A DNA stretch of 64,000 nt from Pseudobythopirellula maris (GTDB lineage Bacteria > Planctomycetota > Planctomycetia > Pirellulales > Lacipirellulaceae), in NCBI RefSeq assembly GCF_007859945.1, contig NZ_SJPQ01000001.1:744001-808000 (forward strand), in the 5' to 3' direction. Below the pieces are notes generated by a model, which saw nothing but the letters and a program-made list of their open reading frames with translations, was not told the DNA's origin and searched no databases. Positions 37,976 through 47,625 of the stretch are shown here, one piece after another (the first letter of the stretch is position 1; every line of letters begins with the position of its first letter). The translations under genes and the position numbers were made by a program.

Positions 37976-40867
37976 TTAGCCGCGACGACGCCTCCGAGTG
38001 GGCAGCACCGCCGCGACCGCCAGCAAGACGAGCGTCCCAGGCTCCGGCACACTCGTCTCGCCAGGCGAGTCGAGCTGTTGCCCGAACTGCGCGACCCACA
38101 TGTCGTAGTCGGCCATGTCGACCACGCCGAAGCTGGCGCCCGATTCGTCGCCCGCGCCGTTCAGCGCCGAGTTGTTGCCTCCCAGGTTGTCACGCCACAC
38201 GGTGAAGTCGGCGGCGTCGACCGAGCCGTCGCCGTTGAAGTCGCCTTGCAGCAAGGGAGCGACCAACGCGTAGCCGACCCCGTCGTACCAGGTGCGTGAG
38301 GCGTTGCCGTTGAGGGTCTCCCAATCGTCGATGAAGACCTGAATGTCATCGCCGTCGCCCACACTCTTGCGGCCCAGGTAGGCCCGATAGAGCAGCAGGT
38401 CGTTGTTGTCGTCGGCGACGATCTCGATCGATTCGAAGCTCTCGGCGTCGGCGTGCTGCGACCCGTAACGCCGGAAGTCCACCAGGTTGTCCTGCTCGAG
38501 GCCGGCCATCAGTCGCCAGTCCTCGTCGTTGTCGCCCCAGAAGTAGGCGAACACGTCGTAGAGCCCCGCATCAAGATCTTCGATCGTCGTGCGCAGCATG
38601 GCGGCGTTCTCGGAGCCCGACTCGTTGGACGCGTAGACGCTGCCGCCGTTGCCGTAGCCGGTGCGCTCGTGCCATTGGTTGTCGTCGGCGCCGGACGCGG
38701 CGGCGGGGCCGGTCGCGCCGATCGCGGCGCCGTTGGTGCGTGTGGTGTTCGAGTCATCGGCGTCGACGTACACGCTCTGGCCGATCACCTCGTCGCGATC
38801 GACGATGCCGACCACCGCCGCGTTGATGTTGTGGGCGGTGTTGTAGTCGCCACGAAACCAGAAAACCGACTGCGGCCCCACGCCGTGGGTGTCGGGCGCG
38901 ATCGGCCTGAGGTTGTCGACCGAAGAGTTCTCGGTGACGGCGGTCCAGTTCCAATCGGAGCCGTCGTACTCGCCCTTGTAGATCTCGTGGTGATCGGTCT
39001 CGGTTTCCCATTCCGGATCACGCGGGTCGTACGGGGTGGAGATGTAGAGCGTGTTCTCGTCTCCCGGGATGAGCGCCCCCAGGCCGGTGTAGTCCTGCTC
39101 CGGGCCGTAGAGCCGCGGCCCCATCTTGGCGATCTCGTGCGACTCCCAGCTCTCGCTGTCGGGGTTCCAACGCGAGAAGTGCAGCCGGTGGTCGATCGGG
39201 TTGTTGGTGCTGCCCGCGTCGGTCGAGCCGTCGGGGTTGTTGCGAGACGTGTACAGCGCCATCAGGTTGCCTTGCGAATCGAGCGCCGCGTCGGTCGTCC
39301 AGAGGCGGTTCTGCCCCTCCCCCAGGGCGTCCGGGGCGTCGACCAGCGTGAAGTCGGTCACGTCGGGCACGGAGCCCGCGCCCGCCGTCACGTTGCTGTC
39401 GAACAGGTTCTCGTCGATCAGGTTCCCTTGCATGTCGAAGGTCTGGCCGCCTTCGATGTAGCCCGAGTAGATGCTGTTGTTGTAGTTGCGAGGGTGCGTC
39501 TCGGTCGTGGTGAAGTAGATGCGTGACTTGCCATCGGAAACGTACTTCGGGTACGCCGAGTAGCCTTGCGCCGACGACTCGAGGAATTGGCCCGCCCACT
39601 CCACCTCGTTGGTGTCCGGGTCGTAGCGGATGATATTCGGCATGTTCTGGCCAGCGCCATTGGTCGACAGCATGCCGTAGCTGCGCGAGATGTTGTAAAC
39701 CTGATCCTCGTCGGACAGGTAGAAGATGTTGTGGTAGCTCACGTTGGCCTGGTTGTCCGAGCCGCCCGGGTGGGTGTTGGCGCCCGGCACGTTGTCGAAC
39801 CAGTTGTAGAGCTTCTCCTCCGACCACGAAGTGCTGTCGCCCGGGTCGGTGCTCACACGGAACCGGGTGAACTCGTCGCCCAATCCGCCGTTGTTCCCGT
39901 GGTTCGCGTACATCGCCAGGTAGCGTCCGTCCGGCAAGACCAGCAGGGCCCCCACGTTGTGGTCGTCGTTCTGGATCTGGGGGTTGCCGCCCACTTGGTT
40001 CGAGAGCTGCGTGCGGACTCGGCGCCCCGTCGACGGGTTGAAGTTGACGACGTCCACGTTGCCCGGGTAGCTGCCGCCCTGCACCGTTTCGTCGAAGCCA
40101 ACCGAGTTGACCAGCACGTTGCCGTTGTTCGGATCGACGATCGTCCGTTCGTCGGTGTACCAGGTCCAGTTGCCGTCGCTGTCGAACTGGATGAGGTTTC
40201 CGTTGACGCGATCGGTGATCATCCCCGGGGGCGGCGGGGGCTGAAGGCTCGCCCCGATCGCGTCGAAGGCAACGTTGCGGGCCGACCCAGAGCTAACCCG
40301 CTCGGCGCCCAGCGAGATCCGCAAGGTCGCGGCGTTGGTCGGCACCTCGGTGGCGCCGAGTTCTTCGATGAACTGCCAGCCGCCGCCGCTCGTGGTTTGG
40401 GCGCCGTAACCTTGGCCAACCGACGCCCCGCCCGAGTCGAAGAAGTCGTAAGCGATCGTGCCTAGGTCTCCCCCGTCGTTGTGGTAATAGGCGTAGGAGA
40501 GGCCCAGGTGCAGATTGCCGAGGCCGATCTCTGCGCTGTGCGGGGTGAGATCGATGTCTTGGTAGAGCAGCCCGCTGTTGGCGTCGCCGCCGATCAAGGA
40601 GCTGGCGTTCGGCAGCCCGCTGTATTGCCAACTGCCCGAGAGAAACTGGTCACTGAGGTAGCCGCTGCCCGGATCGGCGCCTCCCATCGCGGAGTCGCCA
40701 ACCCACAGCGGGTTGCTGCCGGCGGAAACCGTCCACCCGCTCGGCGCCGAAAGCGGCGAGCTGTTCTCAAAGTCGCCATTGTTCACCGTCAATGCGATCT
40801 GCGCGTTCGCACAGGCCGCAGACATACAAAGCACGAACAGCATCATCGTGAAGCGATTAGAAGCCAC
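37976..40867 (-). CDS. Secreted BNR-4-type propeller protein with dockerin and PEP-CTERM tail
   Basis: 963 residues from GTG 40867, chosen because GGGAG lies just upstream and it gives a charged signal peptide (MASNRFTMMLFVLCMSAACA, cleavage ANA-Q); a TTG at 40888 and ATG at 40846 are alternatives. Residues 23-200 are a beta-sandwich starting VNNGDFENSS. A BNR-4-like propeller follows (WTWYTDERTIVDPNNGNVLV, NDDHNVGALLVLPDGRYLAM), a fold shared with PL24/PL25-type ulvan lyases and sialidase-like proteins. Next come a module from VYVDADDSNTTRTNG to RTWYDGVGYALV, a dockerin pair (GDFNGDGSVDAADFTVWRDN) and a PEP-CTERM tail (VPEPGTLVLLAVAAVLPTRR). Polysaccharide binding or cleavage is likely; substrate unknown. 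Confidence 0.82.
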   Translation of the reverse strand: MASNRFTMMLFVLCMSAACANAQIALTVNNGDFENSSPLSAPSGWTVSAGSNPLWVGDSAMGGADPGSGYLSDQFLSGSWQYSGLPNASSLIGGDANSGLLYQDIDLTPHSAEIGLGNLHLGLSYAYYHNDGGDLGTIAYDFFDSGGASVGQGYGAQTTSGGGWQFIEELGATEVPTNAATLRISLGAERVSSGSARNVAFDAIGASLQPPPPPGMITDRVNGNLIQFDSDGNWTWYTDERTIVDPNNGNVLVNSVGFDETVQGGSYPGNVDVVNFNPSTGRRVRTQLSNQVGGNPQIQNDDHNVGALLVLPDGRYLAMYANHGNNGGLGDEFTRFRVSTDPGDSTSWSEEKLYNWFDNVPGANTHPGGSDNQANVSYHNIFYLSDEDQVYNISRSYGMLSTNGAGQNMPNIIRYDPDTNEVEWAGQFLESSAQGYSAYPKYVSDGKSRIYFTTTETHPRNYNNSIYSGYIEGGQTFDMQGNLIDENLFDSNVTAGAGSVPDVTDFTLVDAPDALGEGQNRLWTTDAALDSQGNLMALYTSRNNPDGSTDAGSTNNPIDHRLHFSRWNPDSESWESHEIAKMGPRLYGPEQDYTGLGALIPGDENTLYISTPYDPRDPEWETETDHHEIYKGEYDGSDWNWTAVTENSSVDNLRPIAPDTHGVGPQSVFWFRGDYNTAHNINAAVVGIVDRDEVIGQSVYVDADDSNTTRTNGAAIGATGPAAASGADDNQWHERTGYGNGGSVYASNESGSENAAMLRTTIEDLDAGLYDVFAYFWGDNDEDWRLMAGLEQDNLVDFRRYGSQHADAESFESIEIVADDNNDLLLYRAYLGRKSVGDGDDIQVFIDDWETLNGNASRTWYDGVGYALVAPLLQGDFNGDGSVDAADFTVWRDNLGGNNSALNGAGDESGASFGVVDMADYDMWVAQFGQQLDSPGETSVPEPGTLVLLAVAAVLPTRRRRRG

Positions 40868-41847
40868 GGCCGTCTCCCTGGAATTCAATGGTTGCCGATT
40901 CCGCCCTGCATCATGGCGACTTGAAAAGCATGGTAGCGCGATGCGTGGCCCTGCCCCTGGGCCTTAGTTGAAAAGCAATCGAGAGGTGAAGCTGAACGCT
41001 TCGCAAAGGATGGCTGACCGCCCACCGGCAAGCTGTTGGTCTGCTGGGGCGACAGCGTCATCCGAGGTTCCGATTCCGTGGGTTCATCATAGTGGCTTGA
41101 GAGACTCGCCAATAACGCAGTTGCGCAATTCAATACCGTGAACCCCCACGCCTCGCTGATCACCGTCAAGCGAAGCCCCAGCGAGTAACCTCATTCTGCT
41201 CGTGCTATATCGCCAATTGCGTTGAACGGCGATGATCCTAGCTGGCACTCCCACGAGAGCATCCTGCAAGTTGATTCGCCTACGAATGCCTCAGCGCCTG
41301 GCCAAGGCAACTCGCTTTCGGCGGGCGATCGACCCCGATCCGCGGCAAGCACAACGAGCCTTCGCCAAAGCGCGAAGCACAAACGCGGTTGCATCAATTG
41401 AGCAAATGCATGCCGCGATTGCGGCATTCTGTTGACAGTCGAGCAGCACATCCCCAGTATGGATTCTGGACATGAGAGGCGTGCCCCTTCGCAGGGGGCA
41501 AACGGCAACGGCTACCAAGTTCACAACTCTTTTCTCAAGGCGGCGACACGGAGCCGCACTCGTCATCTCGACACAGTTTTTCTCCATGGGCATGAGCCAA
41601 CCGCTCTTGCCGCGACACACCTTGGGCGCTCTTACGCTTCGCAACGGAGCCGCCCGACACCAGCCCATCCCGTGGGACACGAGCCCCACGTTGGCGCTAT
41701 GTACGTGTTGATTCGTTCGATCGCTCGTGGCGTAAATCGTCTTTCGTCTTCCAGGAATCAACGGAATGTGACTCCCTGCAAGTCAGGTCGAGAGGCGTCA
41801 ACATGCCAATAGAATGCAACCGCTCATCTGATAAGGAAACGTTTCTG
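40868..41847. other. 980-base spacer without a supported gene
   Basis: Short reading frames occur on both strands (for example 41291-41761 minus and 41432-41812 plus), but none shows a recognisable domain, membrane profile or good ribosome-binding site. Near 41833-41839 AAGGAAA serves the downstream DUF1559 gene. The region separates divergent genes and may include a decayed insertion; I cannot prove it. Confidence 0.45.
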
Positions 41848-43026
41848 ATGATCCCATTTGCCTCAAGCAAGCGGATGCGTGCGGCGTTCACGCTGGTCGA
41901 GTTGCTCGTTGTGATCGCAATCATCGGCATCCTCGTAGCGTTGCTGCTACCGGCCGTCCAGGCGGCCCGTGAGGCCGCACGACGCACGCAATGCACCAAC
42001 CAACTGAAGCAATTCGGCCTGGCCCTGCACAACCACCACGACACCTTCAAGCTGCTGCCCGGCGGCTCGGCCTTGCCCTCCATCTGGGACAACGGGAACC
42101 TCCGCTACTGGAGTGACGGCGAACAAGTCGAGTGGACTTGGGTGACATCGATCATGCCTTTCATCGAAGAGCAAACGCTCAAAGACTCATTCCACATGAC
42201 ATACGGCAATGGAGATTGCTGGCCGAACTCGACCGGGATCCCCAGCGGCGCCTCGTTCGCCAACGTCGACCTCGTGGACAAGAGAGCTTTCCCAAGTCTG
42301 CTCTGCCCTTCCGACCCGATAGCGGCGCGGCCGATCAAGATCCGTCTCACCAACCCGCAAGGGGGAGAAATCATGGGCAGCGACGTGAATCCGCCTTCCG
42401 CGCCGGGGGTCTCTTACGTCGTCTCGATGGGCCCGACGATCCCCGATTTTTGCATGTACCCCCGCGAGTCGAACAACATCAACACGGAGGAAAACAACAG
42501 CGCGAGCGAGACACGCCGCGTCTGCATGGGGCGAGCCATGGGCTCCCAGCCATCCGGCGGCGCCGCGGCGCCGTGCATGGGAGGCAAGGCCGGCTCGGCG
42601 AGCGGCTGTGTCGCCGCTGCCGACAAGTTCGGCGGGGTCGGCATGTTCAATCGCAACCCGAACGGCAAGGCGTTTCGCAAGGTCTCCGACGGCCTCAGCA
42701 AAACCTTCATGGGCGGCGAGACGCTCTCGATGCACAACAATCGCAACTGCGCCTACTGCACCAACTTCTTGATGGCGTCGACCAACACCCCGATCAACGA
42801 GAAGCACAAGTGGGACGACCCCGATCTGATCGACATGAGCGACGGTTTCGGCGAGCCGGGCTACGCCTTCACCTCGGGCTTCAAGAGCGACCACCCAGGC
42901 GGCGCCAACATGCTGCTGGGCGACGCCTCGGTCCACTTTGTCAACGAGAGCATCGACTACTTTTCATGGAACGAGTACGGAACCATCGCCGGGCAAGAGG
43001 CGCCAGACTATATCGTAGGGAACTAG
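41848..43026 (+). CDS. DUF1559 protein with prepilin-type N-terminus
   Basis: 392 residues. The N-terminus carries a type IV-pilin-like processing and methylation motif ([20 protein letters not shown], cleavage after residue 13), then [20 protein letters not shown], the DUF1559 signature. The C-terminus ends with the usual [20 protein letters not shown] motif. ATG 41848 is chosen over 41803 because AAGGAAA lies about eight bases upstream and the signal is then at a normal distance. DUF1559 proteins are abundant in planctomycetes and thought to be surface pseudopilins; individual roles are unknown. It stands before two PEP-CTERM genes, with no shared operon evident. Confidence 0.93.
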
Positions 43027-43311: not shown

Positions 43312-46302
43312 ATGTTACGGCATCTTTCGTTTTTGCTTATCACAGGCTGCCTCATCGGCCCCGCCGCAAGCGTCATGGCGCAAGGCTTGATTTACGTCGA
43401 CGCCAAAGATGGCTACTACCCGAACAACAATCTCTACAGCACCTCCGAAGGGGCGATCGGGACCTTGATCGAGCCTGGCAACAATGACTTCGTCAACGGC
43501 GACGGCCGTTTCCCTGAAGACGGCGCCTGGCACTGGGCAAACTTCGGTTCCACCTGGGGTTCGTCCACCGAGGTGATGAACGTTTGCGGCGTTGAGTGCA
43601 CCAGCGTGTACGAGTCACTCGAGGAGGACGCGCCTCTGATCGGCATGCGACTCGGAATCGAGCCGGGGGCGCAATACGCCCTCACGCCGGGAGCCGAGTA
43701 CGATGTTTACGTCGCCTACTGGGGCGACGGGGGCGGCAACTGGGGCGTGCAAGCGGGCCTCGACTCCGCGGCGATGACCCTCTTTGACTTCGACGGAGCC
43801 GAAGGCGCGGTCCAAGGCTCCTTCGCCAGCAGTGGCGCCTGGGCGGTCAAGCCGCTCGACAACCGCACGGACAACAATTCGAGTGAAGACGAATTCTACC
43901 CGGCCAGCGACGACAACGATAACCCGTTCTTGGACAACACCCCCGGCGCCCCGGCCGGCTCGGCGCGTAACCTGCGCGTCGGCTTGGTCGGCACGACGAT
44001 GGCCAACGCCTCGGGTCATATCGACGTGTTCATCGACGACAAAGACAGCCTGGAAGCGGGGCAACGTTCGTTCTTCGACGGCCTGGCGTTCGTTCCGGCC
44101 GGCACCCCTGTTTTCACCACGGGAGCGTTGGACCGTAGCACCGGCGGACTGACCATCACCAACCCCACACCAGCCGATTTCCAGATCAACGCCGTGAGGG
44201 TCACTTCGCCCGCGGGCAGCTTGAACGCGAATCTGTGGAACTCGATCACCGAAGACGGCTTGATCAACGACCCCGATGGCGACTGGGCCATCACTTCCCC
44301 GGTGAGCGACAGCGAAGTAGAGCTCGCCGAGAGCGACGCCGGCGACTTGGACGGCGTGACCTGGCTGAGCGGCGGCGCCACGCTGGACCTCGGGAACGTC
44401 TGGCGCAAGGGCATCTTCGAGGACATCACGATTGAGCTCGACGTCGTAGGCGGCGGCACCGTGGTGATTACTCCTGAATACACGGGCACGCCGTTCGAGA
44501 CGGGCGATTTTGACGCCGACGGTGACATCGACGCCGACGATTACATCCGCCTGGTGCAAGGGCTCCACGTCGAACACGCGACCACATCAGCCGCGTACGC
44601 TTTCGGCGACATCAACGGCAGCGGCGCGGTGGACCGCAGCGACGTCTTGGCGTTTGCAGAAAACTTTAACCTGTTCAACGGTTCGGGCACTTTTGCCGAG
44701 ATGGTCGAGGGCCTGTCGGTCCCCGAGCCCTCGACCGGACTGCTCTCTCTGGCCGCCACTGGACTGCTGGCCTTGCGTCGTCGCCGTCGGGCGCCCGTCG
44801 CATCGCCCGCTTCGCGGGTCGCTAACAAGGGGGTGCTCGCTGCGGCTATGCTCGTGGCGTTGCTCGCCGCCAAGCCGGTCTCAGCGGTCGAGGTGGTCAA
44901 CTGGGAGATCGACCCGCTCGTTCCGAACAGCGGCTCCAATCTTAGTAACGAAGCAACCAGCTCCCCCACGGTTGGGTTGATTGACGGCAGCAACGTCCCG
45001 GAGCTCGACAGCGCCGATCAAACCGCGATTTGGGGCTCGATTCCAATCGACGTCAACCTGACCAACGGCCAAGAGGTGGTGCTGCGTGGTTCGGTCCACC
45101 TCCACGGCGGCGAGAGCATGAACAACGGGGCGTTCCGTTGGGGCATCTTCCAGGACGACACCCCCGACGAGGGAGAACCCACGGGCAGCTGGCTGGGATA
45201 TCTGGCGAGCAGCTCGTCGGGCGGCGGCGGTGGGGTTGGCGATGGCCGATTGACGGCCAAGAACCCCGACGCCGGTGACTGGGAAACCGCCACGCCGATC
45301 TCGACCAACGGCACCGCCACCGAGCTGGGTGGAGGCGGCCGCATCTACAACCTCTCCGTCGGCGGCACGACCGACGGTTACGCCGACGGCGTGTACGATT
45401 ACGGCATCACGATCGGCCGCTACGGCGACGAAGTGACCGTGAGCTCATTCCTCAAGCTTGCTCACCCCGAAGGTGACTACAACGACAACGGCAAGGTGGA
45501 CGCGGCCGACTTCACGGTTTGGCGTGACAACCTGGGAACGGGCGCCGCACTGCCAAACCGCAGCCTCGCCAGCCATGGCGACGTGAGCATGGCCGATTAC
45601 GACGTGTGGGTGAACAACTTCGGAAACGAGTACGACCACGTCCTGGGTGGCGGCACGGACACGAACTCGATCCCGCACCCGCTGTTCCCGGTCGCCCAAG
45701 TGGAAGACCCCGAAACCATGGAGCTGGTGGACGCCGAGGTCACGCCTCACTTGTCCTTCCAGTACAATCGGGTCGCTTTCTTGCTGGCGGATCACCTGAA
45801 CGCCGATTACGCCCAGTTCCAGGACACCGAGATCGCGGCTCAAGCCATCGAGTCCGTCACGCTCGAGGTCAACGCCGCGACGGGCGAGGCCACGTTCAAG
45901 AACGTCTCGAGCACCGACTTCTCGATGACCTATTACGAGATCACGAGTCCCTCGGATTCGCTGGTCGAGAGCAATTGGGACAGCCTCGCCCCCGACGCGG
46001 TGATCGATGGCGTCGAATGGGATCGCGCGGCGGGGTCGAGCGACTCGATCCTTTCGGAGGTCAACCTGTTCGGCGCCCCGGCCTCGCTACCGGTCGGTGT
46101 GACGCCGATCAGCCTCGGTAATATCTGGGACACCGGCGGCGAGCAGGATTTGACCCTGTTCTTCATCGACGACGAAGGGGCGTTGATCCGGGGCATCGTC
46201 AACTACGTGGGGGCTTCGGTCGCCGTGCCCGAGCCTTCGGCGATCGTGCTCCTCTCCCTTGCGGCCGCCATGGCGGCCTCGATCCGGCGGCGGGGCTGCT
46301 GA
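43312..46302 (+). CDS. Tandem PEP-CTERM protein: two secreted proteins fused in one frame
   Basis: 996 residues. First half: signal peptide (LSFLLITGCLIGPAASVMAQ), a module beginning LIYVDAKDG and ending FFDGLAF, a beta domain with VRVTSPAGSLNANLWNS, a dockerin-like pair (GDFDADGDIDADDYIRLVQG) and a complete PEP-CTERM tail (VPEPSTGLLSLAATGLLALR then RRRR, residues 470-493). Second half: a signal-peptide-like segment (GVLAAAMLVALLAAKPVSA, 507-525), a new beta domain, a second dockerin pair (GKVDAADFTVWRDN), another domain like that of the first half (YEITSPSDSLVESNWDS) and a second PEP-CTERM tail (VPEPSAIVLLSLAAAMAASI then RRR). The natural reading is fusion of two adjacent genes by loss of a stop. 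Function unknown. Confidence 0.85.
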   Translation: MLRHLSFLLITGCLIGPAASVMAQGLIYVDAKDGYYPNNNLYSTSEGAIGTLIEPGNNDFVNGDGRFPEDGAWHWANFGSTWGSSTEVMNVCGVECTSVYESLEEDAPLIGMRLGIEPGAQYALTPGAEYDVYVAYWGDGGGNWGVQAGLDSAAMTLFDFDGAEGAVQGSFASSGAWAVKPLDNRTDNNSSEDEFYPASDDNDNPFLDNTPGAPAGSARNLRVGLVGTTMANASGHIDVFIDDKDSLEAGQRSFFDGLAFVPAGTPVFTTGALDRSTGGLTITNPTPADFQINAVRVTSPAGSLNANLWNSITEDGLINDPDGDWAITSPVSDSEVELAESDAGDLDGVTWLSGGATLDLGNVWRKGIFEDITIELDVVGGGTVVITPEYTGTPFETGDFDADGDIDADDYIRLVQGLHVEHATTSAAYAFGDINGSGAVDRSDVLAFAENFNLFNGSGTFAEMVEGLSVPEPSTGLLSLAATGLLALRRRRRAPVASPASRVANKGVLAAAMLVALLAAKPVSAVEVVNWEIDPLVPNSGSNLSNEATSSPTVGLIDGSNVPELDSADQTAIWGSIPIDVNLTNGQEVVLRGSVHLHGGESMNNGAFRWGIFQDDTPDEGEPTGSWLGYLASSSSGGGGGVGDGRLTAKNPDAGDWETATPISTNGTATELGGGGRIYNLSVGGTTDGYADGVYDYGITIGRYGDEVTVSSFLKLAHPEGDYNDNGKVDAADFTVWRDNLGTGAALPNRSLASHGDVSMADYDVWVNNFGNEYDHVLGGGTDTNSIPHPLFPVAQVEDPETMELVDAEVTPHLSFQYNRVAFLLADHLNADYAQFQDTEIAAQAIESVTLEVNAATGEATFKNVSSTDFSMTYYEITSPSDSLVESNWDSLAPDAVIDGVEWDRAAGSSDSILSEVNLFGAPASLPVGVTPISLGNIWDTGGEQDLTLFFIDDEGALIRGIVNYVGASVAVPEPSAIVLLSLAAAMAASIRRRGC

Positions 46303-46605
46303 GGCGACGCCCCCCCGGGGCTTCTCGAAGGCGAATGTCTTGAGAAGCCCCGGGGGCAGCGACACGGGGCGTTGCCTAAGTCAGGGCGCCCCGCTGAGTT
46401 CGACGCAACGTTAGGGGATAGAGTGGCGGCAATCTCATCAGATCGTTCGACATCCAATTATCTGGGAGGGTTATTGCACCACTGCTGACCGACACTGCTC
46501 CATGGGTCTGAGGACGCGTTTTCACACCTCGACACGCAGCCGTTTACCAACTGCGAGTCAACAACGTGTTCTATCGTTTTTCTCATCAAACGAGGCATGC
46601 TTCTA
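46303..46605. other. Spacer between the two PEP-CTERM genes
   Basis: 303 bases. Apart from the hairpin at 46312-46356 and a GAGG ribosome-binding site at 46592-46595, nothing could be assigned. Confidence 0.4.
46312..46356 (+). terminator. Strong hairpin after the tandem PEP-CTERM gene
   Basis: Arms CCCCCGGGGCTTCTC (46312-46326) and GAGAAGCCCCGGGGG (46342-46356) pair perfectly over 15 bases with a 15-base loop. It begins ten bases after the stop codon. There is no U-run after it, so it may act as a Rho-assisted terminator or mRNA 3'-end stabiliser. Confidence 0.65.
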
Positions 46606-47625
46606 ATGAACATACGATCGAAACTTATTGCGGCTACGCTCGGCGTCGGCCTCATGGCGATGGCGTCGAGCGCATCGGCCGCATTCACCTACTTCGACGC
46701 CGATCTGATCGGCTACACCTTGGCGGGCAGCAAAACCTCGCCCGAGACGCCCGTAGCGCCGAACACGACGATGGTCAACGGCGACCCGGTTCCCTATGTG
46801 ATCGGTGTCGGTTCGGGTGGCACGGGTTGGGACAACTTGTGGCGTATCCGGGAGAACGATGGCTTTGGAAACAGGGCAACGGGCAGCCCGGTGGTCGCCG
46901 GCGGAACCAAGCCCTCGGCCGACAATGGCAGCGGCGAGCAACTTATCGGCGACATCATCGAGGCCCGAGGCGACTTTGGGGCCGACAACTCGGAGAACGT
47001 TCCTACGCTGAAAACGACCGTTGATGTCGACCCGTCTGACGAGGGCCAGGAAAAAGCGGTCTACGCCTTCTTTTGGACCGCGGGGACCGCGGGTTGGCAG
47101 ATGAGCGCCTCGCTGACGAATAGCAGCAACTTGGGCCCCCCCACCCCATCGAACCCCCTGCAGCCGGTGTTCCAGGCGGGCGCCACGGGGCAAGTCGCTT
47201 ACGGTGAGACCCTGGGCGAGTCGAACACAACCCACCTCTTCAACGTGTTCGACGCGAGCACCGAGAGCGGCACGCCGCCGGTTGACGCGGTTTTCCAGAA
47301 CCCGCTGTACGCGAGCAACGACTTGCTGCTGACCAGCTCCGATGGGTCGAACAGCGGCGGCGCCGCCGGTGACCGACAGCTCTGGGCCGCCTTCCTGGGC
47401 AATGTGACGCTCGGCGACGAGCTCTCCGTGTTCATCAGTGAAGGCTTTTCGCTCGGCAACCTGTCGGGCGGAAACAACCGTACTTGGTACGACGGCATCG
47501 GATACGGCGACCCCATCCAGGGACTCAGCGAGTTGCCGGAGCTCGTCATTCCGGAGCCGTCGGCGATCGCCCTGCTGAGCGTTGTTGGAATCACGTGCCT
47601 CGGACGCCGCCGCAACCGAAGCTGA
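46606..47625 (+). CDS. PEP-CTERM protein of unknown function
   Basis: 339 residues from ATG 46606; ATG 46597 is in frame but only one base from GAGG, while 46606 has normal spacing. Signal peptide (LIAATLGVGLMAMASSASA, cleavage near ASA-A). The body begins FTYFDADLIGY and ends NRTWYDGIGYGDP, resembling modules in the BNR-4 protein and the tandem PEP-CTERM protein. Tail: IPEPSAIALLSVVGITCLGR then RRNR, a standard PEP-CTERM sorting signal recognised by an exosortase and then cleaved or anchored. A strong terminator follows. No enzyme motif seen. Confidence 0.85.
   Translation: MNIRSKLIAATLGVGLMAMASSASAAFTYFDADLIGYTLAGSKTSPETPVAPNTTMVNGDPVPYVIGVGSGGTGWDNLWRIRENDGFGNRATGSPVVAGGTKPSADNGSGEQLIGDIIEARGDFGADNSENVPTLKTTVDVDPSDEGQEKAVYAFFWTAGTAGWQMSASLTNSSNLGPPTPSNPLQPVFQAGATGQVAYGETLGESNTTHLFNVFDASTESGTPPVDAVFQNPLYASNDLLLTSSDGSNSGGAAGDRQLWAAFLGNVTLGDELSVFISEGFSLGNLSGGNNRTWYDGIGYGDPIQGLSELPELVIPEPSAIALLSVVGITCLGRRRNRS

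Follow-up and report, generated by a model that had tools for sequence, protein, structure and literature searches.

A reading frame in the planctomycete Pseudobythopirellula maris raises the question of whether a single bacterial gene can encode two separately sorted surface proteins and, if so, how these would be released from their common precursor. The frame lies in a 64,000 bp stretch of contig NZ_SJPQ01000001.1 (positions 744,001 to 808,000), referred to here as the window, and occupies window coordinates 43312-46302 on the forward strand. It is uninterrupted, encodes 996 residues, and contains two complete exosortase substrates in series with no stop codon between them, each with a signal peptide, a body, and a PEP-CTERM tail. 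A sequence-only reading had described two PEP-CTERM proteins in one frame; this is confirmed, and understated the case, as the pattern recurs widely. We consider it probable that the two exosortase substrates are secreted as one polyprotein, cut at a hairpin by signal peptidase and exosortase, and that this reflects a widespread planctomycete strategy. The features of the ORF are as follows.

43312-46302 (+), candidate two-unit PEP-CTERM polyprotein ORF, 996 aa; open frame, with single-ORF orthologues of the same unit order in five genera
43312-43380 (+), signal peptide at the N-terminus of unit 1, residues 1-23, VMA/QG (the slash marks predicted cleavage); sequence, with A23 and G25 invariant across the aligned orthologues
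43381-44718 (+), mature unit 1, residues 24-469, beta-rich; sequence, orthologue alignment, and a low-confidence model
44503-44652 (+), dockerin type I domain, residues 398-447; PF00404, 27.6 bits (cut-off 22.9)
44719-44790 (+), inner PEP-CTERM tail, residues 470-493, with VPEP, membrane helix, and Arg run; PF07589, 27.5 bits, and TIGR02595
44791-44832 (+), predicted cytoplasmic loop from the Arg run to the inner signal peptide, residues 494-507; sequence
44833-44886 (+), core of the inner signal peptide with its predicted cleavage site, residues 508-525, VSA/VE; hydrophobic segment aligned across all five orthologues
44887-46224 (+), mature unit 2, residues 526-971, best conserved at 851-965; sequence and orthologue alignment
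45472-45627 (+), dockerin-like segment of unit 2; by eye, below the Pfam cut-off
46225-46293 (+), terminal PEP-CTERM tail, residues 972-994; PF07589, 24.1 bits

Both tails exceed the curated PF07589 cut-off in a genome-level scan, in which the inner match covers residues 469-493, and a protein-level Pfam scan also returns two PF07589 stretches. The NCBIfam model TIGR02595 likewise places both tails above its cut-off, with the best stretch at residues 470-493, exactly where a full sorting tail in mid-protein had been proposed. Each tail has a PEP motif, a membrane helix, and a basic cluster; only the terminal one lies at the extreme C-terminus, and the inner tail lies 503 residues before the end of the protein. 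The signal-peptide-like segment expected soon after the inner tail is present at residues 508-525 (K506-G-VLAAAMLVALLAAKPVSA/VE), with a basic loop, the core VLAAAMLVALLAA, and the site VSA/VE, such that a signal peptide precedes each unit, one N-terminal and one inner, according to a simple rule and not SignalP. Of the features claimed for unit 2, the PEP-CTERM tail is confirmed and the dockerin is only dockerin-like by eye: only the first dockerin (398-447) passes the Pfam cut-off, and the dockerin-like segment of unit 2 (residues ~721-772) sits mid-unit, away from the tail. An AlphaFold model generated from a five-sequence alignment is of low confidence (mean pLDDT 40), and the helices that it draws at 475-492 and 499-518 carry no evidential weight.

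Other genes of the region include a single-unit PEP-CTERM gene directly downstream (46597-47625, +) with its own signal peptide and tail, which has no real similarity to the polyprotein except in the tail. Just upstream (41803-43026, +) is a gene whose product has a prepilin-like N-terminus of a type common in planctomycetes. Further to the left (37976-40888, -) there is a 970-residue PEP-CTERM protein with a BNR_4 domain (PF15892, 42.5 bits) and dockerin-like repeats, probably a surface protein acting on polysaccharides.

The sequence-only reading called for a comparison of orthologues for one gene versus two, and the answer is one. A whole-protein search of 97 relatives returned matches that continue past the inner tail and into the signal peptide behind it within single long ORFs. 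Counting the window's own, there are five full-length homologues (carriers including Botrimarina colliarenosi Pla108 and Aeoliella straminimaris ICT_H6.2), which represent five genera and have the same unit order at ~33% identity. Their alignment spans both units, the tail, the hairpin, and the second tail, with the junction in frame in all aligned orthologues and the loop shorter in the others than in the window. Across one junction, comparison of the close orthologues L044 and L050 gives a dN/dS of ~0.19, which favours the polyprotein reading, although this single pair is itself close to synonymous saturation and two broader comparisons were saturated and uninformative. The codon-position GC over the junction (0.67/0.61/0.70) is uninformative, being dominated by signal-peptide composition.

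The arrangement extends well beyond these orthologues. In more than 40 planctomycete genomes we found 104 multi-unit ORFs, which together have 170 inner junctions. Each ORF encodes several otherwise complete proteins, and together with the five-genus orthologues these ORFs support the earlier suggestion of a natural polyprotein. The raw compilation held 105 ORFs and 171 junctions, including a wrong-frame false positive (L131); this locus, L041, and short ORFs of L066 and L072 were false positives of a loose tail pattern and were dropped by eye. Genomes were searched with a 57-position junction profile, sampled within Planctomycetota only. Complete stop-free junctions are present in many genomes of the window's family and, at the level of the order, in 36 of 296 sampled genomes from ten families (E<=1e-8); in another class they are sparse, and most tails there end in a stop. 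Two-unit ORFs were read in many genera among the fetched loci, and one ORF (L056) has 2531 residues and ten tails, recovered by Pfam as 10 PEP-CTERM stretches, and reaches a contig edge. Others have 2298 residues with eight tails and 2427 residues with seven (L061, G086:C14), the latter being a near tandem repeat of a secreted enzyme-like unit, in which Pfam counts seven PEP-CTERM stretches and six FGE-sulfatase domains. The genome encoding L056 (G068, with L057 and L108) has ORFs with 8 and 10 tails whose units differ (LamG-like, F5/8 type C-like), and contains 17 strong junctions in a fragmented assembly. In a single-contig genome (G012), 17 of 17 further candidate loci are multi-unit ORFs.

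Within the P. maris genome itself (G000; 5.07 Mb, 6 contigs, 82 PEP-CTERM matches) two more ORFs, of 1431 residues (L009) and 1570 residues (L010), each contain three tails and three signal peptides. By an approximate hand count, about nine same-strand adjacent tail pairs within 3 kb are separate genes there, versus five fused junctions. The genome has three exosortase ORFs, and exosortase is present in all 11 polyprotein genomes tested (this one and 10 of 10 others). Two exosortase domains (G012:C1:1484638-1485399 and G021:C91:533714-534469) lie within frames of ~1740 residues; other exosortase ORFs have 310-640 residues.

This recurrence bears directly on the suspicion that a stop codon was missed, or that a frameshift or decayed gene produced the long frame. 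One relative does carry a nonsense codon: in L050 (G005:C9, Botrimarina) unit 1 is interrupted by a single TAG at a position that is a sense codon in L044, and the remainder is open, which makes it a natural test for survival of unit 2. However, there are 104 ORFs in more than 40 genomes, several of them assembled as single contigs, orthologous single ORFs occur across genera, and the inner tails are undegraded. A missed stop or indel is therefore excluded as a general explanation for the class, and we regard error or decay as barely credible.

The junctions have a common anatomy, usually consisting of PEP, a membrane helix, an Arg-rich loop of about 9 residues, a hydrophobic core, and AxA, a layout that would form a hairpin of two helices and place the two predicted cut sites at the outer face. 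In the first 75 junctions, most loops between the tail helix and the core of the signal peptide are 3-12 residues long. A signal-peptide-like core lies within 60 residues of the tail in all 75, whereas random windows drawn from these ORFs contain one in 82 of 4000 cases; with the five-genus orthologues and the 104 ORFs this led us to reject chance or artefact. The test, a home-made rule and not SignalP, is passed by 167 of the 171 junctions, and the remaining three true junctions show a visible signal peptide. As part of the locus set was picked by the junction profile, loci picked otherwise were counted separately; 74 of their 77 junctions pass, the failures being the false positive L131 and two weaker visible cores. 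Of the inner signal peptides, 72% have AxA after the core, as do 56% of N-terminal signal peptides; shuffled sequences average 49% and reach at most 60%. The inner cleavage sites are thus at least as good as those of ordinary signal peptides, although their excess over composition is moderate.

Haft et al. 2006 (PMC1569441) described PEP-CTERM tails near the extreme C-terminus and suggested that the rare proteins whose tail is much longer may lack function. The inner tails are, judged by score, unlike such degraded motifs: median scores are 43.3 for inner tails, 42.4 for terminal tails, and 44.1 for single-unit genes (inner versus terminal P=0.20; 175 inner tails). In one 1418-residue three-unit-like ORF (L148, G010:C1:2330000-2337500) an inner tail has VPEG for VPEP, possibly a loss of exosortase recognition at that site.

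A rival reading is an overlapping operon, in which downstream units are made from internal translation starts. Some long-loop junctions do keep an ATG (L009, L057, and L037), and the window has a GTG at 44833, the codon of V508, which the sequence-only reading had put forward as a possible start. This is a poor candidate, as the preceding AAGGGG (44827-44832) abuts the GTG with zero spacing; the sole ATG there (44848) is 15 nt from AAGGGG as read from the sequence. More generally, an ATG between tail and core is absent from 60 of 75 junctions, ATG, GTG, and TTG are all absent from 29 of the 75, and loops of 3-12 residues leave scant room for a leader. An ATG with a spaced Shine-Dalgarno sequence is found at 6 of 127 inner junctions, versus 13 of 15 single-unit relatives (one unit family, with a somewhat wider search window), which suggests that downstream units lack translation starts of their own. 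In L010 the Arg run of one tail doubles as the n-region of the next signal peptide (...LAPRGLRRAAPLAAVLAIACCCGTASAQ...), and therefore there is no space for a start codon. Internal starts were rejected for most junctions on the ATG and Shine-Dalgarno counts; initiation at inner junctions appears unlikely, and as an account of the whole class we judge it very improbable.

A secreted precursor cut at its hairpins would accommodate these observations. PEP-CTERM tails are considered to span the membrane such that PEP is exposed on the outer face and the Arg run stays inside (PMC1569441). The first signal peptide would start export of unit 1 until the inner PEP-CTERM helix stops transfer, its Arg-rich end staying in the cytoplasm. 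The short basic loop would then serve as the n-region of the next signal peptide and export of unit 2 would restart. With PEP outside and the Arg run inside, the next signal peptide would thus be correctly oriented to restart export, and both cut sites would face outward. The resulting two-helix hairpin would present both sites at the outer face of the inner membrane, where signal peptidase I would cut after the inner signal peptide to free the next unit and exosortase would cut at PEP to free the previous one, with the small hairpin peptide discarded; the terminal tail would be processed in the usual way. Signal peptidase alone would suffice to separate the units, with exosortase trimming the upstream one. 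We infer the membrane topology, both cuts, and the separate action of the units from sequence. Extended to the class, we lean, a little less firmly than for the window ORF, towards planctomycetes regularly making surface proteins as many-member polyproteins (up to ten members per ORF), with a hairpin module cut twice from outside by exosortase and signal peptidase.

Two variants differ in which cuts occur. Signal peptidase might resolve the polyprotein alone, with exosortase limited to free C-terminal tails, such that upstream units keep a hairpin anchor and only the last is sorted. A cut at the inner AxA would be enough for this, and exosortase action at inner tails is a prediction; but a mere stop-transfer helix would need no PEP, and the inner tails retain both the PEP and scores equal to those of terminal tails. 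We consider this variant unlikely. The second, in which the product stays uncut as a multi-domain membrane protein of extracellular beads linked by membrane hairpins, fits the topology, but the cleavage motif of the inner signal peptides exceeds shuffled sequences and is no weaker than the N-terminal one, and the unit family exists as separate genes in relatives. It seems less plausible still.

In one unit family, fused and separate forms coexist. This unit is LamG-like (by eye, without a Pfam match), carries the signature DRxYxFGDD, and is the last unit of many three-unit ORFs. A profile of it matches 83 copies within the taxonomic family. Most of them belong to ORFs of 900-1660 residues and ~18 to single-unit ORFs of 397-541 residues, several of which lie directly behind another PEP-CTERM gene (L125, L127, L128, L130, L133, and L045). 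A tree of 56 copies requires seven parsimony changes between fused and single states, three of them forced by well-supported branches, and includes one clade of 16 copies (100% support) from several genera that are all fused. Fusion is therefore old and maintained, yet interchangeable with separate genes, and such interchangeability fits products that finish as separate proteins. Units within one ORF are near repeats in L061, L062, and L044 and dissimilar in L009 and the window ORF, and therefore both unit duplication and stop loss between neighbours seem to be at work. The probable origin is loss of stop codons between adjacent PEP-CTERM genes together with unit duplication; the long-loop junctions with an ATG look like younger fusions, and short loops lacking Met like older ones. 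Since the tail would in any case be removed by exosortase, the stop codon would no longer be needed in a gene with a signal peptide behind it.

The multi-unit PEP-CTERM design looks like a genuine bacterial polyprotein strategy that seems to have gone unnoticed. A literature search covering few subscription journals found no paper joining PEP-CTERM or exosortase with polyproteins. Polyproteins are usually regarded as a viral device, with operons expected in bacteria, and if the interpretation is correct the planctomycete ORFs would, to our knowledge, represent the first large class of multi-protein polyproteins encoded on bacterial chromosomes. We know of exosortase having been considered so far on C-terminal tails only, and it might need a free end; it would now have to be able to act at internal sites. 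Its specificity would be directly testable, with internal tails as a probe of the need for a free C-terminus, and proteomics would have a fixed prediction in new N-termini after AxA and new C-termini at PEP. Annotation would change for ORFs that look like odd giant proteins and for internal PEP-CTERM motifs suspected of being non-functional, and a route would be apparent by which stop codons between adjacent genes become dispensable.

Three known systems provide comparisons. Conventional PEP-CTERM/exosortase sorting (TIGR02595, PF07589) shares the tail with its PEP, helix, and Arg run, the N-terminal signal peptide, and exosortase genes in the genome, whereas here the tail is internal and a new signal peptide follows directly. 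In the FbcH cytochrome b/c1 precursor of Bradyrhizobium, signal peptidase separates the parts of a bacterial polyprotein by cutting at an internal signal peptide, as predicted here, but this precursor has one junction, belongs to a respiratory complex, and involves no sorting tail or exosortase, whereas the planctomycete ORFs have up to nine junctions. In viral glycoprotein polyproteins such as the bunyavirus precursors, signal peptidase cuts at an internal signal sequence that comes after a stop-transfer helix, again as predicted here; they differ in that the planctomycete units are cellular bacterial proteins with a second cut predicted by exosortase, and the likeness implies no common descent.
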